This document shows positions 3,761-43,150 of a stretch of DNA of 64,000 bases, piece by piece (position 1 is the first letter of the stretch; each line of letters starts with the position of its first letter). Position numbers and translations under genes: made by a program. The notes beneath the pieces were generated by a model, which was not told the origin of the DNA, ran no database searches, and worked only from the letters and a program-made list of their open reading frames with translations. The stretch is from the NCBI GenBank assembly GCA_030704425.1, contig JAPDHM010000002.1, forward strand, positions 124,001 to 188,000. The letters are read 5' to 3'. This DNA comes from Rhodobacteraceae bacterium IMCC1909 (GTDB lineage: Bacteria > Pseudomonadota > Alphaproteobacteria > Rhodobacterales > Rhodobacteraceae).

Positions 3761-3837
3761 AGCAGCAATAGTTTCTGAAGGTGTAACGCCCCAGTTAATC
3801 AGCTCAACCCCAGCCCTTTGATATGGCAGCAATAACG

Positions 3838-3976
3838 GGTGCTGTCAGACGAATGAGAACTCACATCAGATTGCAGATTGCTAGCGCAGCCTAAATCTAT
3901 GCGCTCAATAATTGACGCCACTTAGCGAGAGCGGCAGCACTGTTAAACTTGGAATTGGTTCGTTAGTAAAGATGGC
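3838..3976. repeat. IS6-family right-end remnant
   Basis: Begins GGTGCTGTCAGACGAATGAG, the same terminus as the complete IS6 element at 54526, and stays recognisably similar for about 140 bp (shared block ATGCGCTCAATAATTG). The transposase body is missing, so this is a decayed end. Confidence 0.75.
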
Positions 3977-3984
3977 GTAAGACT

Positions 3985-4316: not shown

Positions 4317-4332
4317 TGGTGCCCCCACACGG
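4317..4332. repeat. tRNA-Thr-derived att core, copy A
   Basis: TGGTGCCCCCACACGG, identical to the 3' end of the tRNA-Thr fragment at 26129. Tandem GTAACCC (spacing 11) on the left and AAAGCGGTCC (spacing 12) on the right could be integrase arm sites. No integrase adjoins it now, so it is probably a scar of a lost island. Confidence 0.65.
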
Positions 4333-4551
4333 CAAAATATAATTTAATAAAATATTTATTATCAGATACTTAAAATAATGAAAATTTCAAAAAGCGGTCC
4401 CAAAAGCGGTCCACGGTGACTCACCTGCTAGGTCTGGCTTCCCAACGACAGCTATCAGGTTTGCTACCTCTAGAAGCGTGTGGTGCTTACAGAGGCCACA
4501 GGTAATGCTGAGTTGGTGCTGTGGGATGGTTGAGAGCTTGGTCATTGGTTG

Positions 4552-7231: not shown

Positions 7232-7547
7232 CGTTGCCGTAAAACTAATGCAAACTCGCATCACATTGCTAGCATAGCCTAAATCTATGCGCTCAATAAT
7301 TGGTGCCACTCGGCGAGCGCAGTAGCGCGGTTCAGCTTGATATTGGTTCGTGAATGGAGATTGGCTTTCCTACAGCTCCACACGCTCAACTTAACCCCAC
7401 ACCAAACCCTGTTACGCCTTTAGCAGACCAGACGGCCGAGAGGGAAAATGAGGTCTAGTTTTAACGGAGCGAAATGGAGAGTTTTTGTGATCAAAAGATG
7501 TTGCAAGGTAACTCTGCCCGCCTAGAGTAGTTCTGTCTTACAGTGCC
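7232..7547. repeat. Non-autonomous IS6 derivative (MITE-like)
   Basis: About 316 bp. The left edge resembles the IS6 right end (ACTAATGCAAACTCGC, ATGCGCTCAATAATTGGTG); the right edge resembles the IS6 left end (GCGAAATGGAGAGTTTTTGT, then CTTACAGTGCC). The middle is replaced by the C-rich unit (TTAACCCCACACC). No transposase remains, so any movement would have to be in trans. The 588 bp between 7145 and 7734 otherwise holds nothing recognisable. Confidence 0.65.
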
Positions 7548-8974: not shown

Positions 8975-8990
8975 TGGTGCCCCCACACGG
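8975..8990. repeat. tRNA-Thr-derived att core, copy B (left end of island 1)
   Basis: TGGTGCCCCCACACGG in direct orientation relative to copy D (16625). Sequence to the right is island 1's left arm, including two TGGTCTACGAT repeats 12 bp apart (9081-9103) that match TGGTCTACGG at the start of int1 (16563). Confidence 0.75.
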
Positions 8991-9412
8991 GGATGGCTCC
9001 GCCAGTAGGCACCAACGCTTAGCATTAACCTTACAAAACAAGGCTACTGTCTCATTCTGGTTGCTGCAACAGGCGTAATTTGGTCTACGATATGGTCTAC
9101 GATACGCAGGACAGCCTCCCTGCGAGTGCCACCCCCACCCCTCGGGGTATCGTGCACAAGCCTGGCCTGAGATTAAGATTTGATAATCGTCAAGTTGACG
9201 GTTTTGATTATACAGGGGGATAAGGCTGGCTGTGCATCTGCGAAGGTTTGATGGTCTATTAGTATTCCTCTTTCTCGTAGAAGAAGAAAACAATGTAGGG
9301 AATGTAGGGAATGTAGCCCAATCCGAAAAGTCCACAGAGAATTCTCAGTAGAAAGTTTCCAGAAAGGGCTACACAGCCTACATCGCCTACATCAGTAGGT
9401 TAAGCAGGGTTG
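8975..9412. repeat. 438-bp inverted repeat, left copy
   Basis: Near-perfect inverted copy of 13048-13485; I saw one base difference, near 9335 versus 13114. It holds the att core, the tandem TGGTCTACGAT sites, a stem-loop-rich stretch and the last codons of the primase gene. ORFs that appear in both copies are identical translations of the repeat and are not genes. Confidence 0.9.
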
Positions 9413-11098
9413 GATGCCATGCCATTGCAGGCCGTTTGAGGAGCGGTGTTGGTAGACGCCTTTTAACTTCTCCAGAGATCGCTTGAAGGCTGTGGTGGAT
9501 TGTGGCTTGCGGCCTGCTCCCGAACACCATTCACGATAAGCTTGGTAGAACTTAGAGGCAGCGTAAGAATAGTCTTTATCCAACTCGCATTCGTCTTGGA
9601 TAAACTGGGTGATGCTATCCATCGCAGATTTGTATTCAGCAACCTGGTCTTCTATGATCTGTGGTGTTTGCAACTCATTCTTTTGCCACTCTAGGCAACC
9701 TTTAATAGCCCAGTTTAAGATGCCTGGCAGTTCTTCCATCAACTTATCGCTGAGGTTTTTGTCCTGCTCTTTCGCCTCGAAAGTGCGGTTGAAAGGAATG
9801 GCTTTAATGCGTCGCCAAATACCATGGTCGGTGTTGTTGATCTGAGGCAGGCTATTTGTTGCTAGCCAAAGCTTACCAATGATGCTGAACTCAACGAATG
9901 TGCCGTACAGTGGTCTAGCTTTTAAATTGTCGCCACCTGTCATCTGTTTGATCTTAGCTTCAGCTAGTGACTGACCTTCTTCCGTTTCGCTCACTGTGAT
10001 CAGCCTCGCTCCAATGAGATCAACCAGGTCGTCGCCAATTGAACCTCCACCGTTTGCAATCAGTGTATGTGAAGCTGCAGTTGTCCCATATGAACCTAAT
10101 AGCTTGTTAATCACATTGATGAAGGTGGATTTGCCGTTAGCCCCGTCACCGATCATGATGAACAAACATTGCTCAGATGTTGATCCTGTTAGGCTATATC
10201 CAACTGCTTGTTGAACAAAGCTTATTAGTTCCTGATTGCTTTCAAAAACATCATTGAGAAAGTTGAGGAAAACAGGACATTCGGCTTTTGATGTGTAACT
10301 TACAGATATTGCCTTACTGACTAGCACGTTCGGATTAGGGTTCGATGTTTGGCCTGTATTCAGATCAATCCACTTATCTTTCGTCGCTAAAACAAAAGGA
10401 TCAGTATCGAACTCTGATGCCTTTACTGCACGATTAATAGCTGCAAATTTGCTGATATTTTCTAATCGCTGTACGCTCTCAAACGATGATAAATTGGTGG
10501 CGTCGGTAAAGCTTTTTAGATCAACTAATGCGGCTTTTGCATCTTGGACAAAGTGATATGCTAGCTTTTTGATGTAGGCACATTGGTCAGCTTCCCAATA
10601 ACTACCATTCCAAATCATCCATTGCTTCTTTTCGACAACGTAAACGGCTTTCCCATCAAGCCATCGACTAAATACCGTACCAACCTTGGCTTCGGTTACA
10701 TTAGACCGATCTGAAAATTGACCAAAGTTGACTAAATCACCTTCCATCGGTTCCATCACAGCAATATCGGACGAAAACTCTTTGCCAGAATATGCTGCTA
10801 TTCGATCAGCTATTCGCTTCGCCTTCGATTGACCTAGGCAATCTACAAGCCCTTTGTAGCCCAATAGGCTATCAACAGGCTGTGCGTATGAAGTTCTGAT
10901 GGCACTGATCCTGTCATCAACCTCAAGGTCGCCATTGATATCGCAAATGCGCTGCAAAATTTGCATGAGCAGCTTAGGCTCAATACCTGTCTTTAGGCAC
11001 AGGCCGCTGAAAGCCAAGGACAAGTCATGCCTCATTCCATCTGTCCAGTTTTGGGCTACCTCAGTACACGCAGCCAAAAGGTTCACAGATTGAAGCAA
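9392..11098 (-). CDS. P4-family primase/helicase (D5-like), C-terminal part
   Basis: 568 residues of the phage/plasmid primase-helicase group that starts replication of mobile elements. Visible: a D5_N-type region (about 200-300, WIDLNTG), then a superfamily 3 helicase with Walker A GDGANGKST (317-325), Walker B-like VDLIGARLITVSE, and a C-terminal winged-helix-like tail. The start given (MLQSVNLL) is nominal: the same frame stays open upstream (reading AAEVTYEGLLQSVN), and the PriPol domain lies immediately upstream in another frame. I read the two as one ancestral protein split by a frameshift near 11105-11130. The stop lies inside the 438-bp repeat. A plausible role is replication of the excised island. 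Confidence 0.85.
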   Translation of the reverse strand: MLQSVNLLAACTEVAQNWTDGMRHDLSLAFSGLCLKTGIEPKLLMQILQRICDINGDLEVDDRISAIRTSYAQPVDSLLGYKGLVDCLGQSKAKRIADRIAAYSGKEFSSDIAVMEPMEGDLVNFGQFSDRSNVTEAKVGTVFSRWLDGKAVYVVEKKQWMIWNGSYWEADQCAYIKKLAYHFVQDAKAALVDLKSFTDATNLSSFESVQRLENISKFAAINRAVKASEFDTDPFVLATKDKWIDLNTGQTSNPNPNVLVSKAISVSYTSKAECPVFLNFLNDVFESNQELISFVQQAVGYSLTGSTSEQCLFIMIGDGANGKSTFINVINKLLGSYGTTAASHTLIANGGGSIGDDLVDLIGARLITVSETEEGQSLAEAKIKQMTGGDNLKARPLYGTFVEFSIIGKLWLATNSLPQINNTDHGIWRRIKAIPFNRTFEAKEQDKNLSDKLMEELPGILNWAIKGCLEWQKNELQTPQIIEDQVAEYKSAMDSITQFIQDECELDKDYSYAASKFYQAYREWCSGAGRKPQSTTAFKRSLEKLKGVYQHRSSNGLQWHGIQPCLTY

Positions 11099-11631
11099 GC
11101 CCTCGTAAGTAACTTCTGCCGCATTAGGATTGCAGGTGGTGAATACAAGTTGCTACCATTTGGATGGACCGACGGCGGTATCATCGTTTGTGAGCCATCC
11201 CCACGCAATTCCACCAAGGTAGATTTATCACCCGAGGTGAATGCCTTGCGAGGTCCCGTCATAATGGCCTTGTAGAGATAATGGCCACTATCCGCCGTAC
11301 CTCTATCAAAGGTAGCTGAGGGTAATGGCAGAATGATATCAGCCAAGCTTTTGGCTTCTCGGCAGTCTAGGTCAACATCAAGTAGTCCTGATGTTACTCC
11401 CAGAATTAGGCCGATATTGTTGCCTCTAGACAAAATTGTATCAGCTGATTTGCCTTGACTTGGCCAATCATTACTTACTGGGCGTTTTGAGTTAGAGTGA
11501 AGTTCAAGAAAAGCGTCTTGATCGCATAGTTTCTGTAATTGTGATAGATGTTCCATTCTAGGAATGTCTTTCATTCTAACGGCAAAAAGGTACCGCCCGA
11601 CCACATCGGGTCGTTGATGAAAGCACATCAA
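11083..11631 (-). CDS. Bifunctional primase/polymerase (PriPol) domain, N-terminal part
   Basis: Up to 182 residues. The segment LILGVTSGLLDVDLDCREAK carries the D-x-D of the archaeo-eukaryotic primase fold and FDRGTADSGHYLYKA the following strand and H; PPSVHPNGS is the usual end of the domain. The true start is probably Met20 (11574) or Met26. The frame ends 16 bp into the helicase ORF with an unrelated tail (MRQKLLTRACFNL), as expected after a frameshift. With the helicase it would make a normal PriPol-helicase. If the frameshift is real the protein is broken unless ribosomal slippage restores it. Confidence 0.75.
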   Translation of the reverse strand: MMCFHQRPDVVGRYLFAVRMKDIPRMEHLSQLQKLCDQDAFLELHSNSKRPVSNDWPSQGKSADTILSRGNNIGLILGVTSGLLDVDLDCREAKSLADIILPLPSATFDRGTADSGHYLYKAIMTGPRKAFTSGDKSTLVELRGDGSQTMIPPSVHPNGSNLYSPPAILMRQKLLTRACFNL

Positions 11632-11761: not shown

Positions 11762-13060
11762 ATGAAAGTAAACAAATTAATCGAGGTTCTTGAACAACAA
11801 AAATTAAACTCTGACTTATGGAAAACGTTATTTCATCAGTCAATATTGCTACGAAAAATAGAAATGGGAGAAATTAGTTGGGAACGAGTAGTTGCCATTA
11901 CTGGAACTAAACTTGACGCCGAACTAAAAAGTATTCTGTTAGCTCGTCAACTTCCAGATATTAGAGGTTCAAAACAACGTAATTTTATTCTTTTTCTTCG
12001 CAAAATTGGCTTCTCGGTATCACTTCTTGCGGAATATTTTGGTCATTCGAAGCGCCACATTAGGCGATTAGAGGAAAGGCTACATAACGGTAAATTTAAA
12101 AAAATATTACACTTTAATAAACGAAACAAAATTCCCCTGTTCAAGAATAGTAATGTACAAAATGCAATAAGCGAAATCTTGCACCAGCCCCCAAGTTTGT
12201 TCGGAATAAACAGAACTACTTGGACGATCGATCTTCTGGCGAGTGTTGTTGAAAATACCAAAAAACCAGTAGAGCAAAAAATTACAAATACAATCGTTTC
12301 ACACGCCATCAGAGACATGGGATACAAGTTCCGAAAAACCAAGGAAGTACTTACCAGTAACGATCCAGATTATAGGTCAAAACTTAAAAATATTACGAAT
12401 ACCCTCAATAGGCTCGGACCTTACGATCGTTTCTTTTCTATTGATGAATATGGCCCAGTTTCTGTCCGTCATCGGGGCGGCAGAATTCGAGTGAAGAAGG
12501 GAGAAAGAGCAGTAGTTGATCAATACCAAAACCCGAAAGGAAAGGTTATTATGACCGCTGCGCTAGAACTTCGGAATAATCAGATGTCGTATTTCTATTC
12601 GCTAAAAAAAGATAGTGAAGAAATGATTAGGTTGGCTGACTTCCTGCAGCAAAAATATCATTACTGTCGATATTTGTATTTTTCTTGGGATGCGGCTTCA
12701 TGGCACTCTTCCTCGATATTTCTGAAAGAGTTGGATAAGCTTAACGATTGGGATTATCGGAACAAAAACCAACTGCCAAAGATAATATTGAAGCCTTTAC
12801 CTGCACGAGCGCAGTTTTTAAATGTTATTGAGTCGGTATTCAGCGGTATGTCAAATTCAGTCATACAAAATAGCAATTACGACTCAGTTGATGAAATGAA
12901 AAATGCGATCGATCGATACTTTGCAGAAAGGAATAATTTCTTTCGGCAGAACCAGCACTCTGCAGGCAACAAGATTTGGGGAAGAGAAAGGACTAAGCCA
13001 ACGTTCAGTGTTTCAAATAATTGCAAAACCCCTTTCTTTGGAAAAATCAACCCTGCTTAA
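11762..13060 (+). CDS. Divergent IS630/Tc1-like DDE transposase
   Basis: 432 residues, AT-rich relative to its neighbours. N-terminal helix-turn-helix region (SLLAEYFGHSKRHIRRLEERL), then an RNase H-fold domain with FSIDEYGPVSVR (first Asp), YLYFSWDAASWHSS (second Asp) and LPARAQFLNVIESVFSGM (Glu), the usual order for IS630/Tc1 enzymes. Its last codons lie in the 438-bp inverted repeat (from 13048), so its present C-terminus was made by a rearrangement. I could not find short terminal inverted repeats around the gene. It may be the agent that brought the inverted island fragment here. Confidence 0.75.
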   Translation: MKVNKLIEVLEQQKLNSDLWKTLFHQSILLRKIEMGEISWERVVAITGTKLDAELKSILLARQLPDIRGSKQRNFILFLRKIGFSVSLLAEYFGHSKRHIRRLEERLHNGKFKKILHFNKRNKIPLFKNSNVQNAISEILHQPPSLFGINRTTWTIDLLASVVENTKKPVEQKITNTIVSHAIRDMGYKFRKTKEVLTSNDPDYRSKLKNITNTLNRLGPYDRFFSIDEYGPVSVRHRGGRIRVKKGERAVVDQYQNPKGKVIMTAALELRNNQMSYFYSLKKDSEEMIRLADFLQQKYHYCRYLYFSWDAASWHSSSIFLKELDKLNDWDYRNKNQLPKIILKPLPARAQFLNVIESVFSGMSNSVIQNSNYDSVDEMKNAIDRYFAERNNFFRQNQHSAGNKIWGRERTKPTFSVSNNCKTPFFGKINPA

Positions 13061-13485
13061 CCTACTGATGTAGGCGATGTAGGCTGTGTAGCCCTTTCTG
13101 GAAACTTTCTACTGGGAATTCTCTGTGGACTTTTCGGATTGGGCTACATTCCCTACATTCCCTACATTGTTTTCTTCTTCTACGAGAAAGAGGAATACTA
13201 ATAGACCATCAAACCTTCGCAGATGCACAGCCAGCCTTATCCCCCTGTATAATCAAAACCGTCAACTTGACGATTATCAAATCTTAATCTCAGGCCAGGC
13301 TTGTGCACGATACCCCGAGGGGTGGGGGTGGCACTCGCAGGGAGGCTGTCCTGCGTATCGTAGACCATATCGTAGACCAAATTACGCCTGTTGCAGCAAC
13401 CAGAATGAGACAGTAGCCTTGTTTTGTAAGGTTAATGCTAAGCGTTGGTGCCTACTGGCGGAGCCATCCCCGTGTGGGGGCACCA
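13048..13485. repeat. 438-bp inverted repeat, right copy
   Basis: Inverted copy of 8975-9412 (island 1's left end). Its right boundary passes through core C straight into a second duplicated piece (13486-13731) matching island 1's right end. It is therefore part of a 684-bp attP-like segment. Confidence 0.9.
13470..13485. repeat. att core C, inverted, attP-like junction
   Basis: CCGTGTGGGGGCACCA, the core in inverse orientation. On one side is island 1's left arm and on the other the int1 promoter and start, exactly the arrangement expected of a circularised island's attP. Confidence 0.75.
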
Positions 13486-13747
13486 TTTAATCACCCAAAG
13501 CATTGTAATACCTTACTAAAGATTATTTTTTAGTGAGCCGTAGACCATGCTGGCAACCAAATCTAATAGCTATACGTTCCAAAAGGATGGAATCTGGTAT
13601 TTCTCCCGTAGAGTGCCTGCTGATTTACGGCGGCATTACAGGACGGGCAGGATTGCTTATTCTCTGAGGACTAAATCCATTAGGGATGCCCGTGTGAGGG
13701 CGATGAGTGATGCTTCTAAGTTAGACAGGCATATCGCTGGGATCTAA
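13486..13747 (+). pseudogene. Integrase int1 N-terminal fragment
   Basis: 13470-13731 repeats 16379-16640 in inverse orientation with no difference noticed. The ATG at 13547 reads the first 62 residues of int1 (MLATKSNSYTFQKDGIWYFS...), then diverges after SKLDRH and stops at 13747. It has the arm-binding N-terminus but no catalytic domain. If expressed from its copied promoter it could only act as a competitor for arm sites. Confidence 0.85.
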
Positions 13748-14182
13748 GTGCAAAGATCGCAATCGATCCGTTAATTCTTTTGAATACAGAGATTGTGGAC
13801 GGTCCATACCCGATGGCAGTGCGATTGGCTCCCTGGAAGGCGAAGTATGTGTCAGCGCCCAAGCCCACATATCCAATAAAATTGGTACAAGATCTATTGC
13901 AGCTGGGCTTAAACAATAAATCTTTCGTTGTGAATGCGCAGGATCATCCTTGAAGTATAACAATCCAATGTCAGTCAACCGTTTTAAACGGCCAGCTAAC
14001 ACACCACTAGAAATCTTTTCGTTATTATTTGCTAAAATTGATCGAAAGGTTCTTTGATTGCATATGGCAATATCACGCAGCACGATTATCGACCAATGGT
14101 CAGCAATCACTGCGGCGCATGTTGAAATTGGACAATAGTTTTGCGCTTTTGAAGTAATATTGGATCTAATAGTTTGGTTCAT
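13721..14182 (-). CDS. HxlR-family transcriptional regulator
   Basis: 153 residues with a winged helix-turn-helix of the HxlR type: CPISTCAAVIADHWSIIVLRD (residues 17-37), then RTFRSILANNNEKISSGVLAGRLKRLTDIGLL, matching the family scheme of a Cys near the start, a DNA-recognition helix and a wing. HxlR proteins are dimeric sensors, often of electrophiles or redox stress, usually controlling a divergent gene, here the secreted protein at 14350. The last codons overlap the duplicated integrase piece, so the natural C-terminus may have been replaced. Confidence 0.82.
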   Translation of the reverse strand: MNQTIRSNITSKAQNYCPISTCAAVIADHWSIIVLRDIAICNQRTFRSILANNNEKISSGVLAGRLKRLTDIGLLYFKDDPAHSQRKIYCLSPAAIDLVPILLDMWAWALTHTSPSREPIALPSGMDRPQSLYSKELTDRLRSLHLDPSDMPV

Positions 14183-14349
14183 TTTTTGCCCTCCAAATGA
14201 TCACCAAGTGTCAAAGTTAATGAGATATCCCCTAAACCATACGAAATACAAGAGCAGTTTAACGTATGTGCTGGTATTTTTTTTTGACGTGCGCTTTCAT
14301 TTTTTAGTCAGAAAAACTGATCGAACAGTCTACAAGAAGGACAGACACT

Positions 14350-14811
14350 ATGAAGAATATCATTTTGGTAGCAGCCGTTTCACTACTTCCAGCTACAGGT
14401 TTTGCTGGTGGTCACAGCGGACTGGGCGGGCATGGAACCGGTATAACTGTCGATAACAAAGTTATTGAAGGTAAAACGGGAACCATTGTTCAGAATAGCA
14501 CAAAAGATATTTGGATTTGGGATAATCCACCGGAAGGCTTTGACGCCGCTACTAACGCCTCCTGCACTCAAACTATTTCATTTGCTAAAGGACAGGAGGC
14601 CCCCATTGGCGGAACTGTTACCTGCACAGTGGTAGACGAAAGCGGTGATGTATTTATCAATACCGGAACATTTGGCGCCGACGGTGTTCTACTAACCCTG
14701 GTTGGAGGAACTGGAAAATGGGCAGCTTACACTGGGGCACAATGGAAAGGCGTGACCAGACACTCACTTGAAGGTGGTAGCTCGGTCTATGACTTTACGC
14801 CCACAAATTAA
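14350..14811 (+). CDS. Secreted beta-rich protein of unknown function
   Basis: 153 residues with a clear signal peptide (MKNIILVAAVSLLPATGFAGG, cleavage after AFA-like FAG). The mature chain is glycine- and threonine-rich with alternating strands (GTIVQNSTKDIWIWDNPPEG, GGTGKWAAYTGAQWKGVT) and two Cys (NASCTQT, VTCTVV). The profile recalls small periplasmic beta-barrels of the allene-oxide-cyclase-like type, but this is only a resemblance. AAGAAGGACAG precedes the ATG. Divergent from the HxlR gene, which probably controls it; the DUF4242 gene follows. Confidence 0.65.
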   Translation: MKNIILVAAVSLLPATGFAGGHSGLGGHGTGITVDNKVIEGKTGTIVQNSTKDIWIWDNPPEGFDAATNASCTQTISFAKGQEAPIGGTVTCTVVDESGDVFINTGTFGADGVLLTLVGGTGKWAAYTGAQWKGVTRHSLEGGSSVYDFTPTN

Positions 14812-14928
14812 CTGTAGCAGCTGCAGATTATTTTGAAAATTAAGCAATGACCAAATTCTAGAGTAACGCCATGTCCTAAATAGGGCATGGTCAACAACAC
14901 ACAACTATCAAACTTGAAAGAGAAGCCC

Positions 14929-15216
14929 ATGAAAAAGTTTTTAATTAGACGTGAAATGGAAGGCGCAGGAAGCATTCCGAAACATGACTTAAACAGTGCG
15001 GGTAAAGGTTCAGAAGAAGTTCTGGAAGCGATGCGCTCTGAGGGGAAGAACATTATGCAAGAGCAGAGCTATGTTGTTGGCGATGCTATTTTTTGCATTT
15101 ACAATTCGGATAGCGAAAATTTGATCAAAGAGCATTCTGAAAGATCGGGTGTTCCTGCCAGTGAGATATCTGAAATTGCTACTGTGATAAAGCACAACAC
15201 TTCTGTTGTTAGCTAA
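14929..15216 (+). CDS. DUF4242 (nickel-binding-like) small protein
   Basis: 95 residues from MKKFLIRREMEGAGSIPKHD, preceded by GAGAAG; an ATG 42 bp upstream has no such site. The layout (strand, GAG motif, helix with SEEVLEAM, YVVGDAIFCIYNSDSENLIKEHSERSGVPASEI) matches DUF4242/SCO4226-like ferredoxin-fold proteins, some of which bind nickel. It follows the secreted protein by 117 bp, in the same HxlR-linked group. Role unknown. Confidence 0.72.
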   Translation: MKKFLIRREMEGAGSIPKHDLNSAGKGSEEVLEAMRSEGKNIMQEQSYVVGDAIFCIYNSDSENLIKEHSERSGVPASEISEIATVIKHNTSVVS

Positions 15217-15384
15217 ATCTAAAACTCAGATGCTGGTTTGCATGCTACAAGATGGAAAAATAATTCGAATGGAAACGGGCGCAACACCGCTTGCTTGATG
15301 AGTTATCGTAGCAACCGACAGAGCAAGCTTTAGAATCTTTGTATCTTAAAATCAAAGGTGGGGCTTATGTATATTGGCCTCACT

Positions 15385-16563
15385 TTATGTTTCCAGATTT
15401 GGGGCCTCAACGATAGCAACTAACCATCTCGTTAGGGTCCCATGATTATGCCCCAATCCATAAGAAGCACCCACACCCTGCGTTAGCCAGCCACCGATTT
15501 GATCAATCACCTCGCTGGGACATTCAACTGCCCTAAGCCTGTCTCGCATTGAATGACGTAAGCTATGGATTGTATAGCCTTGCCCAATCTTCGTCTTCAG
15601 CCACTTATTCAAAGCAGCACTAGCTGAATTGGCATTAGTTCTATGACCCTCGTTGTAATTAGGGAATGCAAACTTACTGCTATCAGACTGTGCTAATATG
15701 CGTTGTGCTGCCCACTTAGATGATCCAACTAATGGTATTACTCTAGCACTACTTGCAGTCTTAAGGGATCGCCAAGGATGAGGCCTGATGTTGACGCACA
15801 GGATACCGTCTTGCTCAATAAAGTCTGATCTTAGCAGCCCAGCACCCTCTGCCAAGCGCATCCCAGTGTCAGCTATCAGGGCTATCAGCCATCGTTTTTC
15901 ATCATCCGCCTTATAGCACTCTGCCTGAACCTTCTTGATGTCCTCAGGCTTTATGGGCAACCGTTTCTTAACCCCTACACTGTGATCAAAATAGACGTTT
16001 GAAAAAGGGTTGACGATTGCTAGCCCAAACTCACTCAGCGCCAAGTTTATAACAGCTCGAACAGTGCCAAATACCCTAGATACAGACGCTCCGTTCAGGC
16101 TTTTGGCAAACAGGTAGTCACGGAACTTTGTAGCATCAGAGCGCACATAATCGTGCAAGTCTTTCATCCCACAGCAGTCAATCAGATAACCACAGGAACG
16201 CCTTACAGCAGCCTCAAAGGTTGGAGGACGGTCATTACCCTTCAGACGCAGATAAACTGCCACAGCAGCCTTCAAGGAATGGTCGTCGATGGAAGCCTCA
16301 GCTTCTGATTCATGAACGGCACCATTTAGTAAATGCTTGCCTGGTAAATCATCTGAGGAAATCCGCAGGATGTGCCAGTGCCTGTCCAACTTAGAAGCAT
16401 CACTCATCGCCCTCACACGGGCATCCCTAATGGATTTAGTCCTCAGAGAATAAGCAATCCTGCCCGTCCTGTAATGCCGCCGTAAATCAGCAGGCACTCT
16501 ACGGGAGAAATACCAGATTCCATCCTTTTGGAACGTATAGCTATTAGATTTGGTTGCCAGCAT
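15385..16563 (-). CDS. Tyrosine integrase of island 1 (int1)
   Basis: 392-residue tyrosine recombinase. N-terminal arm-binding region (WYFSRRVPADLRRHYR), SAM-like core-binding region (about 95-190), catalytic domain with R236 (TGMRLAEGAG), the H-x-x-R box TIHSLRHSMRDR (331-342), GGWLTQ and nucleophile Tyr368 (GASYGLGH). All catalytic residues are present, so it should be active. The start lies 61 bp from core D. TGGTCTACGG overlaps its start codon and matches the tandem arm-like sites at 9081-9103, suggesting that integrase binding could also repress its own gene. The first 62 codons are duplicated at 13547. Confidence 0.93.
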   Translation of the reverse strand: MLATKSNSYTFQKDGIWYFSRRVPADLRRHYRTGRIAYSLRTKSIRDARVRAMSDASKLDRHWHILRISSDDLPGKHLLNGAVHESEAEASIDDHSLKAAVAVYLRLKGNDRPPTFEAAVRRSCGYLIDCCGMKDLHDYVRSDATKFRDYLFAKSLNGASVSRVFGTVRAVINLALSEFGLAIVNPFSNVYFDHSVGVKKRLPIKPEDIKKVQAECYKADDEKRWLIALIADTGMRLAEGAGLLRSDFIEQDGILCVNIRPHPWRSLKTASSARVIPLVGSSKWAAQRILAQSDSSKFAFPNYNEGHRTNANSASAALNKWLKTKIGQGYTIHSLRHSMRDRLRAVECPSEVIDQIGGWLTQGVGASYGLGHNHGTLTRWLVAIVEAPNLET

Positions 16564-16624
16564 GGTCTACGGCTCACTAAAAAATAATCTTTAGTAAGGT
16601 ATTACAATGCTTTGGGTGATTAAA

Positions 16625-16640
16625 TGGTGCCCCCACACGG
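16625..16640. repeat. att core D, junction of islands 1 and 2
   Basis: TGGTGCCCCCACACGG followed by ACTC as in the tRNA. int1 lies to the left and island 2's left arm to the right. Direct repeat of core B, so B x D recombination would excise 8975-16640. Confidence 0.8.
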
Positions 16641-16838
16641 ACTCTGGTTCCTTCAGTGCGACTTATATCCGTTCCTGCATTAAGACTCACACGGCTAATA
16701 CTGCCTGTCAACACACGATAAAAAACTAATGTGGACCGATGTATGACACGTTGTGGACCAAATGTGTACCAACTTTCAGAGGGGGTACATGGGCCACCCC
16801 ACCCTCCTACGTTATATATATTCAGCCTCTGCCAGATA
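16641..16838. repeat. Left arm of island 2
   Basis: About 200 bp nearly identical to 42954-43145 (TTCCTTCAGTGCGACTTATA, GGGCCACCCCACCCT). Contains TGTGGACC at 16730 and 16752 and TGTGTACC at 16763, spaced 22 and 11 bp, as integrase arm sites would be. No gene between 16641 and 16980. Confidence 0.75.
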
Positions 16839-16980
16839 AGATGTGTGAAATTTAGCTGCTAGAGGCTCTCAAGCAGAACTAGTGTGATAGTTTATCTTTG
16901 ATAAAGAGGATCAATGTACAATTTTTTAAATGTATGTTTATTGATGATGATCAATTTAATTTGGTTTACACGAGTGAAAA

Positions 16981-17274
16981 ATGGAAAAGTTCTACTTAAT
17001 CATCCATCTTTTTATGGCTCCTGATGGTTTAAATACCAGAAGCAATCCCATTATAACCGTTGCTCCTGCTCAATTTACTCATATCGAAGGCTATTTCTTT
17101 GAAAAAGAGGAGGCTTGTAATCAGACTTTAGAACAAATTGCGAGAACACAGGACTATAAAGTTATGAGATCGTCTCCCATGTACATAAGACAAAATGCTG
17201 AAATAGGTGAACCAGCATCATTCATGTACTGCGCCTCTGGCAGAGTTAGCGGGTTTAATAATATTCTCGAGTGA
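16981..17274 (+). CDS. Hypothetical protein
   Basis: 97 residues (MEKFYLIIHLFMAPDGLNTR...) with two Cys and no recognised domain. The hydrophobic start is short and followed by charged residues, so a signal peptide is doubtful. It precedes two secreted proteins on the same strand with a 9-bp gap and is probably co-transcribed. Cargo of island 2, function unknown. Confidence 0.5.
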   Translation: MEKFYLIIHLFMAPDGLNTRSNPIITVAPAQFTHIEGYFFEKEEACNQTLEQIARTQDYKVMRSSPMYIRQNAEIGEPASFMYCASGRVSGFNNILE

Positions 17275-17283
17275 GATGGATAA

Positions 17284-18120
17284 ATGTTTAGTACTGTCAA
17301 AATAGTTACATCATCTCTGCTTCTTTACGTAATGGCTTCACTTCCCTTGTTAGCCTCTTCACACAATATATTTGAGATACGCAGCATAAATAGAGACGGC
17401 ACTTTTAAATCTCGTTGGGACCAAGAGTATGCCAGTGAGCAGCTCTATGCAGTCATTGATAGTGTAGACTATCTTATAGCCCCCACACATGAAAAATGGA
17501 TGGGAATCTCTCTGGAGGTCATTCATGAAGGTGACCTTGATGGCGATGGCTTAATTGATGCTGTCATTAGTTCTCACCAAGGAGGTAATTGCTGTGCCCC
17601 TTACTACTTTGTTGTTTCACATAGAGGTGATGGTTTCTTCTCAGTCCATCATCACGAGTCAATGTACGGTCATGAGATTGAGGTAAAGAACCAAGGTGAA
17701 GAGCATCTCATTGAAATATTAGATGCTGTAGGATCATCAGATTACCCCATAGAACACGAAGAATTGACTACACTCAAGTTCACTGAAGGTAACCTTGAAA
17801 TGGTCTCACAGCTTATTAACACAGCACTGATCCCTGCCCTTGTCGAAGTGACAGGACAAGACGTTAAAGAAGCTGATAAACTCATTCTGTTTGATGTGGA
17901 TGAAGATGGAAGAGCCGAAGAGATGATAGCCTCATACTGGGACAGATGGGGGACTGTCATAATTGGAGACATAGTAACTACATCAAAGGGCAAGGTTACC
18001 TTCAGTACAGGATGCAGCAGGATTGGCTTTATGAAGACTACAACAAATGGGCTTCACGACATCGTTTGTGGTCGTAATGACGTGCTAAAATACGATCTAG
18101 AGAATAACAGATACAAATGA
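17284..18120 (+). CDS. Secreted protein with EF-hand/FG-GAP-like repeats
   Basis: 278 residues. Signal peptide MFSTVKIVTSSLLLYVMASLPLLASS. Two calcium-loop-like segments, GDLDGDGLIDAVI and FDVDEDGRAEEMI, each followed by a strand, as in FG-GAP/VCBS repeat proteins; a vicinal Cys pair (GNCCAPYYFVV) is notable. Likely periplasmic or extracellular. The stop overlaps the start of the next gene by four bases (ATGA), so the two are coupled and may function together. No enzyme motif seen. Confidence 0.65.
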   Translation: MFSTVKIVTSSLLLYVMASLPLLASSHNIFEIRSINRDGTFKSRWDQEYASEQLYAVIDSVDYLIAPTHEKWMGISLEVIHEGDLDGDGLIDAVISSHQGGNCCAPYYFVVSHRGDGFFSVHHHESMYGHEIEVKNQGEEHLIEILDAVGSSDYPIEHEELTTLKFTEGNLEMVSQLINTALIPALVEVTGQDVKEADKLILFDVDEDGRAEEMIASYWDRWGTVIIGDIVTTSKGKVTFSTGCSRIGFMKTTTNGLHDIVCGRNDVLKYDLENNRYK

Positions 18121-18494
18121 AGCAACTCATTGCAGCACTTCTTCTATTCGTTATCTCAGCTACAGCTGGGTTTACTAGAGAACTGTCTTATAGCTGCTCA
18201 CTCCCTCCTCTTGCATTCAAGTTCTATAAAATGGGTGATGGTAACCTCTACGATATGGAGGTCATCAGAGGTACCGCAGTCGATCTCGTCTCTGTAGTAG
18301 AGGCAGACCTGCAAGGCTCAGGAGTATGTCGTCATCGTATTTGGTCGTTTGATTATGACGGCCCAATTACTGTTCAAGAACTGGGCTGCTATGGCGAGAT
18401 ACAACCACCTGAGGATGCAGTTGGTGAGGTGGTATTTGGTGATAGCTTTAAGCACAGGCTGTTTTGCTACGCAGCATCTACGTTGGATGAATAG
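18117..18494 (+). CDS. Secreted cysteine-containing protein
   Basis: 125 residues with signal peptide MKQLIAALLLFVISATAGFT. The mature part contains four Cys (YSCSLPP, SGVCRHR, LGCYGE, LFCYAA) that could form two disulfides in the periplasm. It overlaps the previous gene by four bases. No family recognised; a partner of the FG-GAP-like protein is the likeliest context-based guess. Confidence 0.6.
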   Translation: MKQLIAALLLFVISATAGFTRELSYSCSLPPLAFKFYKMGDGNLYDMEVIRGTAVDLVSVVEADLQGSGVCRHRIWSFDYDGPITVQELGCYGEIQPPEDAVGEVVFGDSFKHRLFCYAASTLDE

Positions 18495-18627
18495 AAGTTT
18501 CGTATCAAATGTGAACGAGCTTGAGGTTGAGTTTTCCTACGACCTAACCTGTGGCTTTTGAGAGGTTGGAGAAGGGCTACAGTTTTCTATTAGTCTTAGT
18601 AATGAGAAGTACTAGAACTCTTAACTT

Positions 18628-20202
18628 CTATACTTGTCTCTCTCTCCATTTATTAAATTTATTATAGTCGTTCTTATACCTATTGGTTTGTGTCGGTTTG
18701 TGCTGTGGTGGGTTTATCTTCTTTCCTATTAAATCAAGATAAGTATCAAAGTCGTGTTGTCTAAACTGATTAAGGACATGCATAGTTTGTTCTTGTGTTA
18801 GCTGACCTTCCTGCTCTGCTGGTAATCTGTTGTTGAACACTATTGCTGTAGCCTCTGCCATTGTCTCTTCCAGAAGGTGAGCCTTATCAGCTCTGACTAT
18901 ATAACTATCATGAATAGTCAGAACAGGTTCGTTTTGTTCAACAAATTTAGTAATAATTATATCTGTGATCTGACTATCCATGAACATAAGTTCTATGCCT
19001 CTGTCAGAGCAAATACCGTGCTCTAAGTAGGGATGCTTTTCAATGAAACATCTAAGAAGTAGATCAAGTTGAGCTTTGTTCAGCCTCGGGAACTCATACA
19101 AACCGGTATCTTTGTCCTTTGATGATGTCCTTTTTGACTGATAAGCTTTGAAGGCTTTCTCTTTGCTAGAAGCATTGATTGCAGTGAGAACTAAAAGCTT
19201 CAGGGCTTTCCTCTGTGAAGCTTTATCCAAGCCACCAACCTCGATCTGGTCTAACGTATACCAGTCGTAGCTGTCACCCATAAGAACTCCCTGCTCTGAG
19301 GCTAGGATAGCAACATGCATCCCCTTGTAATCAATCTCTACAGTAGGGCAGCCATCGATCATTATGTCTTTTCTGTAAGACTTTCCAACTTGCTGCCACC
19401 AGCCTCCATAGAACCTTCCGTTTAGCTCCCATGAATTCCTACTGAAGATCCTTTGTACGTACTGGTTACTCCGCCCAATGGGTACTCTTTGGATCTTATT
19501 GTCTTTAGTTTTCCGTTCTATGTAGGGTCTGTCGAGGCTACTGATGTCTATGTGACTTCGAGCCAGCAGTTCATTGTATCTATTAAGTGTTAGTCTCCAC
19601 GGGGCTACGAATGGATAATCATCATTTCCATATTCAATTAGTAACCGTTTTTTACTGCCATCTTTGGCCTTAATGGCCTTACCAGTTTCGTCTGTTTCAA
19701 AGTCACTAAGGACTATTGTCTCCTTCTTCTCATTGTAGCTGATATCAAAAACTAGATCCTGGAGCTTAGCAAACCGAGCTTGAAGTTTGCTGCTAGGGCG
19801 ATAACGGGATGTCCGGCTAAATTTACCCCCATAGACCCTATCATTTTGAAAGTTGTGATGATCCAGAAGACCCACAGAGACCAAAGCATCTATAACTTTG
19901 ATAATCTCCTTGGAGATATGAAGCCCATTGTACCTGCTCTTTGGAACATAACTATTGTTACTTCTAGATATACCGATGCTCAGGCTAGGGTCGGCTAACC
20001 AGCCCACATAGAGGTCGACCAGTAAGACCCTGAGTTGCTTAATAAGAGGGGCCAACGGTTTGCGGTTTCCAGTTGGAAGAACAATTAGGCCCTCAACTTC
20101 AGTGATCTCTAGCCAAATTTCATCAGTCAAAGCTTTGATCTCTGGATGATCAGACCACCGGTGTACATCTAAAGGCCTACTGTGTTCTGGATCTATCGTC
20201 AC
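18628..20202 (-). CDS. Possible single-subunit polymerase-like protein
   Basis: 524 residues, no database assignment possible here. Three spaced motifs resemble the palm and fingers of family A DNA polymerases and T7-type RNA polymerases: motif A-like VEIDYKGMHVAI (Asp291), motif B-like QRKALKLLVLTAINASSKEK (Arg331 and Lys335, spacing R-x3-K as in T7 RNA polymerase), motif C-like LTIHDSYIV (His431, Asp432). The preceding GRFYGGWWQQVGKSYRKDI is basic and aromatic. Order and spacing fit a polymerase fold; the tyrosine or glycine usual at the end of motif B is absent, so activity is uncertain. It faces the secreted-protein genes convergently. A replication or DNA-synthesis role for island 2 would parallel the primase of island 1. 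Confidence 0.5.
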   Translation of the reverse strand: MTIDPEHSRPLDVHRWSDHPEIKALTDEIWLEITEVEGLIVLPTGNRKPLAPLIKQLRVLLVDLYVGWLADPSLSIGISRSNNSYVPKSRYNGLHISKEIIKVIDALVSVGLLDHHNFQNDRVYGGKFSRTSRYRPSSKLQARFAKLQDLVFDISYNEKKETIVLSDFETDETGKAIKAKDGSKKRLLIEYGNDDYPFVAPWRLTLNRYNELLARSHIDISSLDRPYIERKTKDNKIQRVPIGRSNQYVQRIFSRNSWELNGRFYGGWWQQVGKSYRKDIMIDGCPTVEIDYKGMHVAILASEQGVLMGDSYDWYTLDQIEVGGLDKASQRKALKLLVLTAINASSKEKAFKAYQSKRTSSKDKDTGLYEFPRLNKAQLDLLLRCFIEKHPYLEHGICSDRGIELMFMDSQITDIIITKFVEQNEPVLTIHDSYIVRADKAHLLEETMAEATAIVFNNRLPAEQEGQLTQEQTMHVLNQFRQHDFDTYLDLIGKKINPPQHKPTQTNRYKNDYNKFNKWRERQV

Positions 20203-20299
20203 CGTTCAATGCCAATCCGTCTTTTTTGTTTCTGTGTTAGTAGTGGCCTGCTTTTTGTACTTATCTTAGAATATCACAGCTAAACGAATATTTACACTG

Positions 20300-20497
20300 G
20301 CACCATGCACGGGTCACTCCTCTGCATTATTAATTTCTGGCGCTTCACCGTCCGTCAGGATCAAAGCAGAGCTGATAATAGAAGGAAAAGCATTTTTTGA
20401 TGTTGATGGAAGGCCTAAAACTGAAGCTGTGACTAGAGATGACAGAGAACATAGTCAGTGGTACAATAGAAAAACTATGCGGCCGCATAACCTATGA
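20300..20497 (+). pseudogene. Coding relic before the membrane protein
   Basis: One plus-strand frame reads ASPSVRIKAELIIEGKAFFD, then DVDGRPKTEAVTRDDREHSQ and ends MRPHNL at TGA 20495-20497. Composition looks coding, but I find no ATG, GTG or TTG with a ribosome binding site at its head. It may be a truncated gene or one with an unusual start. The rest of 20203-20509 shows nothing. Confidence 0.35.
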
Positions 20498-20509
20498 GCT
20501 TTGAAAAAT

Positions 20510-21118
20510 ATGATAATTTCCAGACTTGTTCACGTATGCCGAATTATTCTTACTACGTTGTATACAATTAGTTTCTTGGTTAGTTGCATTGCATTACCGT
20601 TGTTGATTGGACTGATTGTTCAAGAATTTGGTTACCTAGACAAAGTGGAAACTCGTGTAATCACTTGTACAACTCGTGACAAATCAGATGGTCAGGAACT
20701 GTTTCATGGAGAAGCTTATGTCCGCCCATCAGTTAGTGAACTTGAGCAAATAAGACTAACTTGTGAAGAAGAAAAAGAGAAACGAGAAGTCACAGACAAA
20801 TATTATACTCACGAACCATCGATAACTAATCCATTTCTTAAGAATTTCGGAGATCAGTATCCATCTTGTGAAAGAGTTGGCTATTTTCATGAAATAGACG
20901 CCCAAAAGTACTTCGATACTGCATGCTCAGATAAGAACGATGGAACAGAGTTAGAGAAAACCAACGTTACACGTTCCTACCTCATCGATCCTGACCACGT
21001 TGTATTTTTGCTTATGAGCATCCCTATATCATTGTTGTTGTATTTAATGGGTTACGTCTTCTTTGGAGAGAAAATGATATTACCAATCAGGAAGTTCAAG
21101 AAAATACAGAGCCCTTGA
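20510..21118 (+). CDS. Two-helix membrane protein of unknown function
   Basis: About 202 residues. TM1 near residues 10-40 (IILTTLYTISFLVSCIALPL), a central soluble domain of about 110 residues with paired Cys (VITCTTRD, RLTCEEE, YPSCERV, DTACSDK), and TM2 near 165-190 (HVVFLLMSIPISLLLYLMGY). The soluble part probably faces the periplasm, where the Cys may pair. A TTG 9 bp upstream is an alternative start. No family recognised; island 2 cargo. Confidence 0.6.
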   Translation: MIISRLVHVCRIILTTLYTISFLVSCIALPLLIGLIVQEFGYLDKVETRVITCTTRDKSDGQELFHGEAYVRPSVSELEQIRLTCEEEKEKREVTDKYYTHEPSITNPFLKNFGDQYPSCERVGYFHEIDAQKYFDTACSDKNDGTELEKTNVTRSYLIDPDHVVFLLMSIPISLLLYLMGYVFFGEKMILPIRKFKKIQSP

Positions 21119-21364
21119 TAACGTAGATACTATGATGGGTACGTTGTCCAAGACTACTACCACATGTCGCTATGCTTTAGACTTACAGGGGTTAATTGCT
21201 GCCTTACTACCCTTAGTTCATACCCCTGCCCGTACTTTGGAGCAATAGTTCCAGTAGACGACCGACAACAGCATGGCCAGAATGCTCGAGGAACTGAGTA
21301 TTTTCATATCTTGTTAACCATTTTCAATGGATTAGATGGATGCCGGATCAGATGCAGTTGTGTA

Positions 21365-22429
21365 TTACGATTTCTTGAAAGATCCCTCGTCAATCATCTG
21401 TTGGAACATTTCAATTATGGAGCTTTTCAGAGATCGATATTCTATCCCAAGCTTTTCTTTGCTCTTTGAGTTATCAGCTTTCCAGCTGTGCCCCATGTTC
21501 TTTGTAATCATTTTTCTTGTCATTGATTTATCCATGATTGGTCCAACTAACCAAACCAACCACTTAGGCAACTCTTTATTTGGTAGTGGATATTTCTCAA
21601 ACTCACCTTGTAACATTTTCGAAAGCTTCAATGGCGTACAGCTCTCGTTAGATACGATATGTCGACCACTAGCATCAGGAATATATGCAGCTCTTATGTG
21701 TGCATCAGCAACATCCCTAACGTCCACCATACCTATTTCAAAGGGAGGCGCACCAGCCTTCATAGTTCCATCGCCCATCTGCAAACAGATGTCATGGCTC
21801 GCAGACGTAGATTTACCTGATACTGTAGGCCCTAACACCAACGATGGATTAATAACGACTAAAGACCATTTTTCTTGAGCCTCTGCTATTTTCCATGCTT
21901 CTTTCTCAGCAACTGTTTTCGAGTAAGAATAAGGCTGATGGAAGGCAGAGGATGTAGTATTCCAAATGGTCTCATTCAGCATGTTATTTGGTGCAAATGC
22001 ACACTCATCAGCATCACCATAAATAGCAACGCATGAACTTGTCAGTACCACTCTTTCAACACTGTCTGATGAACTCACAGCTTCAAGGATATTTTGAGTG
22101 CCTTTCAAAGCAGGATCAATCAAATCTCGTTGTGGATCATTAAACTTCAATATGAAAGGTGATGCAGTATGGAATACAAAACTACACCCTTCAACGGCAG
22201 CATTAAAGCTACCAGCTTCTAATAGGTCTGCTTGGAATAAGGTTACACTGCCAGGACCGTTCTGGGATAGTTCCAACAAATGCCCAACTTTAGCATCATC
22301 AGATGGATCTCGCACAGTAGCATGTACATTCACGCCTGCCTCAACCAATTGTTTAATTATCCAACCAGCAACAAATCCAGTACCACCGGTCACTAGGGCT
22401 TTTTTCTTTTTATTTATTTTTATTTCCAT
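21365..22429 (-). CDS. NAD(P)-dependent reductase, extended SDR (dihydroflavonol-reductase-like)
   Basis: About 354 residues. Rossmann motif VTGGTGFVAGWIIKQL near the start, VERVVLTSSCVAIYG (catalytic Ser region), YSKTVAEKEAW (catalytic Tyr-x3-Lys) and VDVRDVADAHIRA, the hallmark of the dihydroflavonol reductase/aldehyde reductase subgroup. Predicted to reduce a carbonyl with NADPH in the cytoplasm; substrate unknown. I take the ATG at 22429 with GGAAGG 12 bp upstream; a TTG at 22441 is the alternative. It stands alone among unknown cargo genes and is a complete, probably functional enzyme. Confidence 0.85.
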   Translation of the reverse strand: MEIKINKKKKALVTGGTGFVAGWIIKQLVEAGVNVHATVRDPSDDAKVGHLLELSQNGPGSVTLFQADLLEAGSFNAAVEGCSFVFHTASPFILKFNDPQRDLIDPALKGTQNILEAVSSSDSVERVVLTSSCVAIYGDADECAFAPNNMLNETIWNTTSSAFHQPYSYSKTVAEKEAWKIAEAQEKWSLVVINPSLVLGPTVSGKSTSASHDICLQMGDGTMKAGAPPFEIGMVDVRDVADAHIRAAYIPDASGRHIVSNESCTPLKLSKMLQGEFEKYPLPNKELPKWLVWLVGPIMDKSMTRKMITKNMGHSWKADNSKSKEKLGIEYRSLKSSIIEMFQQMIDEGSFKKS

Positions 22430-22487
22430 CTGCTCGAGCAACCTTCCAAATTAATCTCATACATTACTTAAGAACTATTGATTAGCC

Positions 22488-23474
22488 TTAACTGGCTCTC
22501 GGCTTCTTAACCAATATTCCTAGGTCATTATACATATCGTCCCCCCAAATATTTAACCTCGGAAAACCGTTGAAAATCTTACGGTTATAGAATTCTAACA
22601 ACTCATCATGGCTGTAGTTTTTGAAGCAATTGAAACGGCTTATTGCTAGCAACATTGCATCGATGATTGTTTCATCACCTGCTTGCTCCTGTCGTTGAAA
22701 AGGAAATTGTGTTGAGTGATCTTTTAAAAAATGGAGAAATGTTAAAATTACATAGACTCGTTCTCTTGAGATTTGCCAATCGGTTTCACCACCACTACCT
22801 CCTTGCTCCATTGCAAATCCTTTGGGAAACCTAGTTAGCTCCACTTCGCAAAGCACATCATAGATTATGTCAACAAGCTCATTAAAAGTTTCAGGATTGA
22901 ACTGATCGATTAAATCGCTATCAACCTCTGGGCCATAAGGCACAATCCTACTCCCTAACAAAGTTACATCGTCCTCAGGTAACTGTATTGCATAATCTGG
23001 AGAACCCGATTTAGCCCAACCGCTGCGGTTATAGAACTTAACAAATTCCTTGTATGATAGTTTTTCAAAACAACCATAACTGTCGATGGCCTTCATCATT
23101 GCAAGTACGATACTTGGGTCATTCACATTCTGTGAGATATCTCGACCACCGATACTTCGAATAGTGTGTGGACTTTTATGATAGTTGTAGAAGGGAAATG
23201 CTAAATCTTGGTGTTCCAGATAAACGAGAATTTGAACTACGGTGTATGCTCTCGGTCTATCTAGGGTCCATGGATGAACCGCACCGTCAACAATTCCCCC
23301 GGTAAAACTGGCGAGTGGCGGCAAGTTGTTTGGCCTGACGCCCTCATAAAATTTACTGTCTTCCAGAATAGTGTGTACTGCCCCAACTACCTTGTCGAAG
23401 TCTTTAGAACGAAGTTTCCTCAGAAGCCGTTTTCGTCTCAGCCACTTGGTTATACTTTCAAAAACTTTAGTCAT
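22488..23474 (-). CDS. Hypothetical protein with internal duplication
   Basis: 328 residues built of two similar halves: SYGCFEKLSYKEFVKFYNRS / SGSPDYAIQLPEDD and FNCFKNYSHDELLEFYNRKI / FPRLNIWGDD, each preceded by a helical stretch (AYTVVQILVYLEHQDLAFPF; RVYVILTFLHFLKDHSTQFP). No signal peptide or membrane segment. The duplication suggests a repeat-built binding protein. First residues are very basic (KWLRRKRLLRKLRSK). Function unknown; same strand as the two genes upstream. Confidence 0.6.
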   Translation of the reverse strand: MTKVFESITKWLRRKRLLRKLRSKDFDKVVGAVHTILEDSKFYEGVRPNNLPPLASFTGGIVDGAVHPWTLDRPRAYTVVQILVYLEHQDLAFPFYNYHKSPHTIRSIGGRDISQNVNDPSIVLAMMKAIDSYGCFEKLSYKEFVKFYNRSGWAKSGSPDYAIQLPEDDVTLLGSRIVPYGPEVDSDLIDQFNPETFNELVDIIYDVLCEVELTRFPKGFAMEQGGSGGETDWQISRERVYVILTFLHFLKDHSTQFPFQRQEQAGDETIIDAMLLAISRFNCFKNYSHDELLEFYNRKIFNGFPRLNIWGDDMYNDLGILVKKPRAS

Positions 23475-42699: not shown

Positions 42700-42937
42700 C
42701 ACAGCCAACATTACCCCACACCCAGCCCCCGTAGCGCCTTAACCGAGCCACAGCCGCGTCAGCAGGCAAACAGCTGCGTAACCAAGCGCCAAATCAAACA
42801 TGTGTGCATCGACGCGTAGGCGTGCGGGCGCGTGGCGGAAATAGCGGGTATGGTCAACCAAAGGGGGGACAAAAGGGGGGACTAATTCAATCAATAATAA
42901 TTAACAGGTTGATATTTAATATTTATGTGATGAATTG
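42700..42937. repeat. Arm repeat left of att core F
   Basis: Close copy of 8740-8974, including paired GGGGGGAC at 42863-42870 and 42875-42882 (spacing 12). An ORF across this and the next repeat is not conserved in the other copy and is rejected as a gene. Confidence 0.7.
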
Positions 42938-42953
42938 TGGTGCCCCCACACGG
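42938..42953. repeat. att core F, hybrid of B-left and D-right
   Basis: TGGTGCCCCCACACGG then ACTC. Left flank matches core B's left flank, right flank matches core D's right flank. That is what integration of an island-2-type element at a B-type site, without island 1, would give. Confidence 0.75.
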
Positions 42954-43150
42954 ACTCTGGTTCCTTCAGTGCGACTTATATCCATTCCTGCATTAAGATT
43001 CACACGGCTAATACTGCCTGTCAACACACGATGAATAACCAATGTGGACAGATGTGTGACACGTTGTGGACCAAATGTGTACCAACTTGCAGGGGGGTAG
43101 ATGGGCCACCCCACCCTACTAGGTTATCTATATATGACCTCTGCCGGTGA
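42954..43150. repeat. Island left arm, second copy
   Basis: Near-identical to 16641-16838, with TGTGGAC-type repeats. Marks the left end of a third island whose integrase is not obvious. Confidence 0.75.

Follow-up and report, generated by a model that had tools for sequence, protein, structure and literature searches.

Attachment sites in described elements and in island 1

Elements of the lambda/P4 type classically carry a single attP, and for lambda the set of arm sites used differs with the direction of recombination. Tycheposons, which are of the tyrosine-recombinase type, are small cargo islands at tRNAs in marine bacteria, and we know of no inverted second attP in them. Inverted pairs of sites are described for other systems. 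The yeast 2-micron plasmid is described as carrying the targets of its recombinase head to head in 599-bp inverted repeats and as existing in two isomers (PMC3147054, PMC6594588), and CTX phage as having two inverted attachment-like (dif-like) sites that pair on single-stranded DNA (PMC3089051).

Island 1 lies in the window, the whole 64,000-nucleotide stretch analysed (contig JAPDHM010000002.1 of Rhodobacteraceae bacterium IMCC1909, positions 124,001 to 188,000). Like lambda/P4-type elements, those of the family of island 1 have int beside a tRNA, a core that equals the 3' end of this tRNA, and arm-type repeats flanking the core; unlike them, they carry a second, inverted attP past int, usually minus one arm site. 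A whole second inverted attachment site is present inside the window element, so its circle would not hold the one attP of classical elements. With the 2-micron plasmid (FLP/FRT) the elements share a predicted circle with two inverted repeats, each containing the recombination site, and a tyrosine recombinase of their own; they differ in being bacterial and tRNA-integrating, in the nearly fixed orientation of int and in that replication genes are recognised in few of them. The two inverted attachment-like sites on one element recall attP1/attP2 of CTX phage, but the CTX sites flank about 90 bp, whereas the elements here have full arms and sites flanking int, their own integrase is present where CTX relies on the host Xer recombinase, and no filamentous-phage gene was recognised in them. 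As small cargo islands at tRNAs in marine bacteria they also resemble tycheposons, as these are generally known. No description of a layout with an inverted second attP was found in the literature searched, which mostly excluded subscription papers.

We read the inner site, attP2, as a built-in reversed second attachment site that forms a regular part of one family of tyrosine-integrase elements targeting tRNAs and that may act as a partner for inversion. Judged from the sequence comparisons below, we put the probability of this reading at about 50%.

The inverted segment of island 1

The first-pass annotation had described the segment at 13048-13731 as a captured attP, left when island 1 once excised or stood in tandem and the resulting junction was re-inserted into the island. 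Alignment of the segment to both ends of the island, a check set beforehand, is ungapped on the reverse complement, with one mismatch in 438 positions between 13048-13485 and 8975-9412 (99.8%) and one in 262 between 13470-13731 and 16379-16640 (99.6%). The two matches meet at the core, as claimed, in a 16-bp overlap (13470-13485) that contains it, and the junction indeed has the form of an attP (R-core-L), inverted. The features of the island are collected in Table 1.

Table 1. Features of island 1, its attachment sites and related sequences in the window (window positions).
Feature	Position	Strand	Remarks
L, left attachment arm (core and cargo-side arm)	8975..9412	+	99.8% inverted match to 13048-13485
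Outer left core GGTGCCCCCACACGG (attL)	8976..8990	+	
Two tandem arm-type sites TGGTCTACG, 12 bp apart, in L	9081..9101	-	
D5-type helicase ORF and Prim-Pol ORF, cargo of region A	9392..11631	-	Pfam PF08706, PF19263, PF03288, PF09250
DDE_3 transposase, stop codon within L'	11762..13060	+	
L', inverted copy of L, half of inner attP2	13048..13485	-	
Two tandem arm-type sites CGTAGACCA in L'	13359..13379	+	
Inner inverted core, common to L' and R'	13470..13484	-	
R', inverted copy of R, contains about the first 62 codons of int	13470..13731	+	
Arm-type site CGTAGACCA = R1'	13539..13547	+	
HxlR-family gene, 3' end running into R'	13721..14182	-	Same junction in L009
Cargo of region B: two ORFs, second SCO4226-like	14350..15216	+	
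Tyrosine integrase (int), N-terminal DUF6538	15385..16563	-	PF00589, PF20172
R, right attachment arm: int 5' end and core	16379..16640	-	Inverted match to 13470-13731
Arm-type site R1, overlapping int start codon	16563..16571	-	
Outer right core (attR)	16626..16640	+	
Unoccupied paralogue of island 1 target site	42713..43145	+	Window self-comparison
CGTAGACCA copies	9081, 9093, 13359, 13371, 13539, 16563		
Dispersed repeat family, window copies	3836-3977, 7239-7371, 29142-29268, 35477-35553, 42554-42685, 48099-48290, 54520-54710		

The integrase is a tyrosine recombinase (PF00589 at 4.2e-11, Pfam), with R236, H333, R336, W359 and Y368 invariant in 10 sequences; we take these to be the catalytic R, H-x-x-R, W and Y. 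Both the integrase and the primase/helicase of island 1 match phage families (Pfam, PHROGs). The whole window has no Rfam match, and a hairpin at the ribosome site of int in R is not significant (z -0.55 to -1.59, four sequences). Inspection of the L arms by eye suggested a conserved promoter directed from L across the core towards int; it is not claimed, because a scan of 13040-13760 gave one promoter-like site against 1.1 expected in shuffles.

The core 15-mer has 13 exact copies in the 3.27-Mb genome and none at one mismatch. One of these copies is the 3' end of tRNA-Thr(TGT), and island 1 sits in a secondary copy of this tRNA-Thr core. Only exact copies are meaningful, since at up to three mismatches the genome gives 70 matches, no more than the 76 of a backward control. 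Six copies lie in the window, where 100 shuffles, searched at up to three mismatches, had a mean of 1.44 and none reached six. The unoccupied target paralogue is 85% identical to the left flank of island 1 and 92% to the right flank. Another exact core, at 4318-4420, precedes AT-rich DNA and a pair of direct AAAAGCGGTCC repeats, resembling those outside element L009 of the same genome. At 26130-26190 a core copy is followed by about 57 bp of partial tRNA-Thr, beside a second, more distant integrase (24932-26071), and 16626-26144, core to core, would be a neighbouring island. A 1.2-kb repeat at 43678-44876 and 51081-52280 (99.9% identical), also in L010, is probably a mobile element, and a dispersed repeat family of about 80-190 bp occurs on both strands, with some copies near core sites.

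Occurrence of the inverted site in other elements

Searching the host genome with the segment located a second element, L009 (C2:496.5-501.7 kb), whose integrase is 88% identical to that of the window. It has an inverted R' with the window's int breakpoint and HxlR junction, and inverted repeats of 344 bp that are 97.4% alike, while its ends are about 89-91% alike to those of the window element. L011 holds 13647-15228, comprising the HxlR junction and the last 85 bp of R', at 98.2% and beside another integrase. The same arrangement is found in L116 (integrase 53% identical to the window's; R/R' of 121 bp at 100%, L/L' of 732 bp at 99.7%) and L117 (43%; 81 bp at 100%, 347 bp at 93.7%). Since it recurs beside integrases down to 43% identity, the inverted copy is older than the divergence of the window element, L009, L116 and L117.

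In G011, a genome of the same genus in a single contig of 3,288,122 bp, four elements have R/R' repeats of 244, 181, 121 and 121 bp, all at 100%, accompanied in three of the four by L/L' repeats of 686-767 bp with identities of 95.3-98.3%; L113, the fifth relative fetched, shows no more than a weak copy (77.6% over 85 bp), and a sixth match, located at 1414840, fell outside the compared set. The targets of the G011 elements are tRNAs for Thr, Leu and Ser, and the inner junctions displayed carry the core of their own tRNA. An element at tRNA-Phe on the complete megaplasmid of Ruegeria TM1040 (L231) has R/R' of 85 bp and L/L' of 1148 bp, both at 100%, with an annotated type I restriction system as cargo; its L and L' each contain a complete BRO-family gene (17511-18086 and 27855-28430) with the same protein accession. 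Inverted repeat pairs are also present in Leisingera aquimarina (75 bp and 996 bp, 100%), Ruegeria HKCCA6707 (86 bp at 100% and 2316 bp at 99.96%) and Leisingera aquaemixtae (85 bp at 97.6% and 225 bp at 97.3%). Where both ends are visible, the order is R-int-R'-core-L'-cargo-L, with the tRNA next to R and the chromosome beyond L. Pairs of L/L' of at least 200 bp were found in ten elements only (the window, L106, L112, L114, L116, L117, L135, L134/L233, L158/L238 and L231). In one survey of 46 loci, 11 had an L/L' pair, which is short or weak in L149, L177 and L190; in many of the loci without a pair the contig stops soon after R'. There is no pair despite at least 9 kb past R' in L107, L142, L146, L156, L182, L186, L188 and L199, and none in L232, the far end of which is without arm sites.

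The integrase survey comprised the best 80 of 242 relatives and one viral contig (81 loci, with two records reached twice, as L108 and L120 and as L110 and L191). An inverted copy of the int 5' end lies downstream of int in 65 of the 81 loci and is at least 30 bp long in 64. Among the 67 testable loci, those of the 80 flanked on both sides by 100 bp or more, 58 have an inverted R' past int and so depart from the classical single attP; the weak 23-bp copy of L164 is counted in the 65 and is absent from both the 58 and the 64. Controls for the 58, taken from the region 1.6-2.4 kb upstream and from reversed downstream sequence, gave none, and direct copies occur in three of the 67. Three of the nine testable negatives (L128, L162, L180) have short int frames. 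Over the 64 loci, the inverted copy is 100% identical in 39 and at least 97% in 55, and the distance of its start from the matched end of int is at most 20 bp in 35, at most 50 bp in 40 and more than 300 bp in 21. Relative to the int start, R ends between -3 and +8 in 40 of the 64, earlier in 13 and beyond +60 in only nine, for which reason we rejected the idea that the int fragment in R' generally serves as a separate DUF6538 protein.

The elements target tRNAs: a tRNA is located just upstream of int in 55 of the 81 loci, and among 56 testable elements (both L108 and L120, the same record, included), with 15 tRNA types represented, 50 have an inner core that differs from the tRNA 3' end at no more than 3 of 17 bases. 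The six misses have 5-14 mismatches, and two of them, L150 and L157, look like register shifts. In a quick integrase tree with some long branches, containing Rhodobacterales, SAR116, Rhodobiaceae and Hyphomicrobiales records and leaving out L108 and L110, the trait is spread across the tree, the label "no" covering untestable loci too. A further 22, mostly more distant, integrase matches gave no convincing inverted copy, a weak negative, several being partial and flanks reaching 1.5 kb at most: the copy is absent in 20, L083 has a 13-bp match with just 56 bp downstream, and L084 is outside the testable range. The 22 include the second integrase of the window (L022, 35%) and L082 (42% identical), both without an inverted copy; on this weak negative, L082 looks like a relative without R'.

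These occurrences bear on the single event that the first-pass annotation had proposed. One circular or tandem junction, re-inserted in island 1 by chance, would account for an attP-form junction nearly identical to the outer ends, but complete records have inverted R' copies as well, as do 58 of the 67 testable loci; L009, with ends only about 90% alike, shares both the HxlR junction and the int breakpoint; L011 has the HxlR junction together with the final 85 bp of R'; and the R'-core-L' junction of G018, 87.9% identical to that of the window, adjoins the primase gene, not the transposase. The layout shared by L009/L011, G018/G011, TM1040 and the 58 loci thus contradicts a one-off relic, which we regard as hardly credible, and makes the segment at 13048-13731 an old part of the element family. 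The attP form and inversion of the segment stand; its capture as the record of one excision or tandem event does not. Concerted evolution accounts better than recency for the close match of the segment to the outer ends. An origin as a short-read assembly artefact is very unlikely, because the layout recurs in the single-contig G011 genome and on the complete TM1040 megaplasmid.

Concerted evolution, arm-type sites and the role of attP2

The attP copies within an element were shown to evolve in concert. Over int codons 4-50, R' is nearest to its own R in eight of eight elements, with identities of 90-100% in seven and 74% in L107, where the repeat is shorter; between elements, the mean identity is 86.4% (range 79-94%). 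Cargo also changes orientation. In L106 and L112 it is inverted as one block with respect to L114 and L116 (best segment 4.3-4.4 kb at 89-90% for the G011 pairs and 3.8 kb at 88% against L116), and it is inverted between the window and L108. The transposase adjoins L' and the primase lies at the outer L in the window, while in G018 the primase adjoins L'. These arrangements show that recombination between the repeats happens, be it through Int or through RecA. Both cargo orientations occur in the two informative groups; int reads away from the tRNA in a ratio of 50:1 (51 loci with inverted repeats and a tRNA beside int). This count rests on 50, because no repeat was detected in L121, L167, L174, L180 and L187, which are among the 55 loci that have a tRNA upstream. 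Flipped int was seen in two cases only, L010 (C1:65.0-70.8 kb) and L156, with int at the inner junction or facing the tRNA.

The 9-mer CGTAGACCA is a motif chosen from the attP sequences themselves; the window contains exactly six exact copies, all inside the two attP copies. The motif covaries, differing between elements and agreeing within each (TACTGACCA, CGTAGTACA, TGACGCACA and TAGACAATT are other versions). In L, two arm-type sites with a spacing of 12 bp lie some 110-130 bp from the core; R contains one at the int start (R1), often with a second 12 bp on, inside the first codons (R2). With L108 and L110 left out of the arm-site counts, tandem L sites, picked as the best pair with 12-bp spacing, are present in 44 of the 53 elements with at least 120 nt of L', and both R sites score at least 6 of 9 in 33 of 44. 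Spacing was compared with others for the R pair only, where 12 bp beat all seven alternatives in 38 of 44, with three ties. Of the 33 elements with a strong R pair, four have R2 within the inverted repeat, and in 29 the repeat ends inside R2 or short of it; in all 29 the inner copy has the lower score at the R2 position, averaging 2.9 compared with 7.5 out of 9. R1 lies whole inside the repeat in 26 of the 33, is cut in two and is outside in five, so that in seven attP2 is poorer than described. Within the group to which the window element belongs, both copies have a weak R2 (5 of 9), and the R2 argument is therefore inapplicable to this element. By analogy with the arm sites of lambda, attP2 would be a poor site for integration, and since it usually lacks the R2 that attP1 has at the int start, this may explain the 50:1 orientation of int.

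The circle predicted to arise on excision would be divided into region B, with int, and cargo region A by a pair of inverted repeats: attP1 (L-core-R), located where int starts, and attP2 (L'-core-R'), located beyond its stop. Integration would proceed through attP1, in consequence of which int would adjoin the tRNA and read away from it, a preference that we infer from the missing R2; attP2 would stay whole inside. With its L' arm sites, current core and usually R1 retained, attP2 is a candidate for strand exchange with attP1, attL or attR, which would invert cargo or int. Recombination between the copies keeps them alike and lets both cores follow a change of tRNA target. The most likely role of attP2 is thus as a recombination partner for inversion, not integration, although ordinary recombination by RecA across L/L' could also have produced the inverted cargo. 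Exchange between attR and attP2 would be rare, given that int is flipped in L156 and L010 only, and free, 2-micron-like flipping of int in the integrated state is not favoured in view of the 50:1 orientation. More tentatively, the elements may constitute a programmed double-attP family, in which a complete attP serves integration, and an inverted attP without R2, matched to it through recombination, serves inversion of int or cargo and possibly amplification of the circle as in the 2-micron plasmid.

Such amplification, in which inversion by Int between attP1 and attP2 during replication of the circle would lead to double rolling-circle copying, seems unlikely to us. The layout is that described for the yeast plasmid, with head-to-head recombinase targets in inverted repeats and two isomers (PMC3147054, PMC6594588), the repeats reach 2316 bp at 99.96%, and cargo isomers are seen. 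A separate host contig (C4, 5713 bp; L225) would also fit, being a second version, 99.4-99.9% identical, of the cargo loop of the tRNA-Ser element L116, with fewer 102-bp repeats than the L116 loop and ends within a few bases of the inverted-repeat edges. Nevertheless, replication genes were recognised only in the window, in L108 (DNA match) and in L146 (by eye among the ORF lists of 18 elements, not by domain search), and free flipping would predict about 1:1 at tRNAs rather than 50:1. The small host contigs C5, C6, C7 and C9 (L226-L228, L230) have vector- or adapter-like ends or shared end repeats; we presume likely contamination or untrimmed reads.

Somewhat less probable still is a decoy function, with attP2 either binding Int while the element is integrated, and stabilising the latter, or regulating int from its far side. 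The arm sites and core of attP2, usually without R2, and its start no more than 50 bp from the matched end of int, as seen in 40 of 64 loci, are compatible with this; however, binding alone would not need a core that tracks the tRNA, unless gene conversion keeps it, and the promoter scan of attP2 did not exceed shuffles. We consider it improbable that attP2 serves a folded attP on single-stranded DNA, where the inverted sites would anneal into one double-stranded attP and undergo single-strand exchange, attP2 being left whole after replication. This would explain why two sites must match and why one intact internal site remains, and the inverted dif-like sites of CTX phage are described as pairing in this way (PMC3089051). 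Against it, neither a relaxase nor a filamentous-phage gene was found in the island 1 proteins (Pfam, PHROGs) or by eye in the ORFs of 18 elements, the integrase has no match at E 1e-20 in 50,697 phage records, and the R2 asymmetry accounts for the orientation bias without single-stranded DNA in most groups.

If attP2 is used as an inversion partner or otherwise, a large group of alphaproteobacterial tRNA islands, some carrying restriction systems (annotated in TM1040), would have a mode of recombination undescribed in the literature searched. The elements also offer natural pairs of sites for one integrase, differing by one arm site, on which the setting of recombination direction by arm sites could be tested. 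Contigs end within 1 kb downstream of int in 39 of 80 loci and start within 1 kb upstream in 10 of 80, and the attP2 layout may explain why they so often end just past int.
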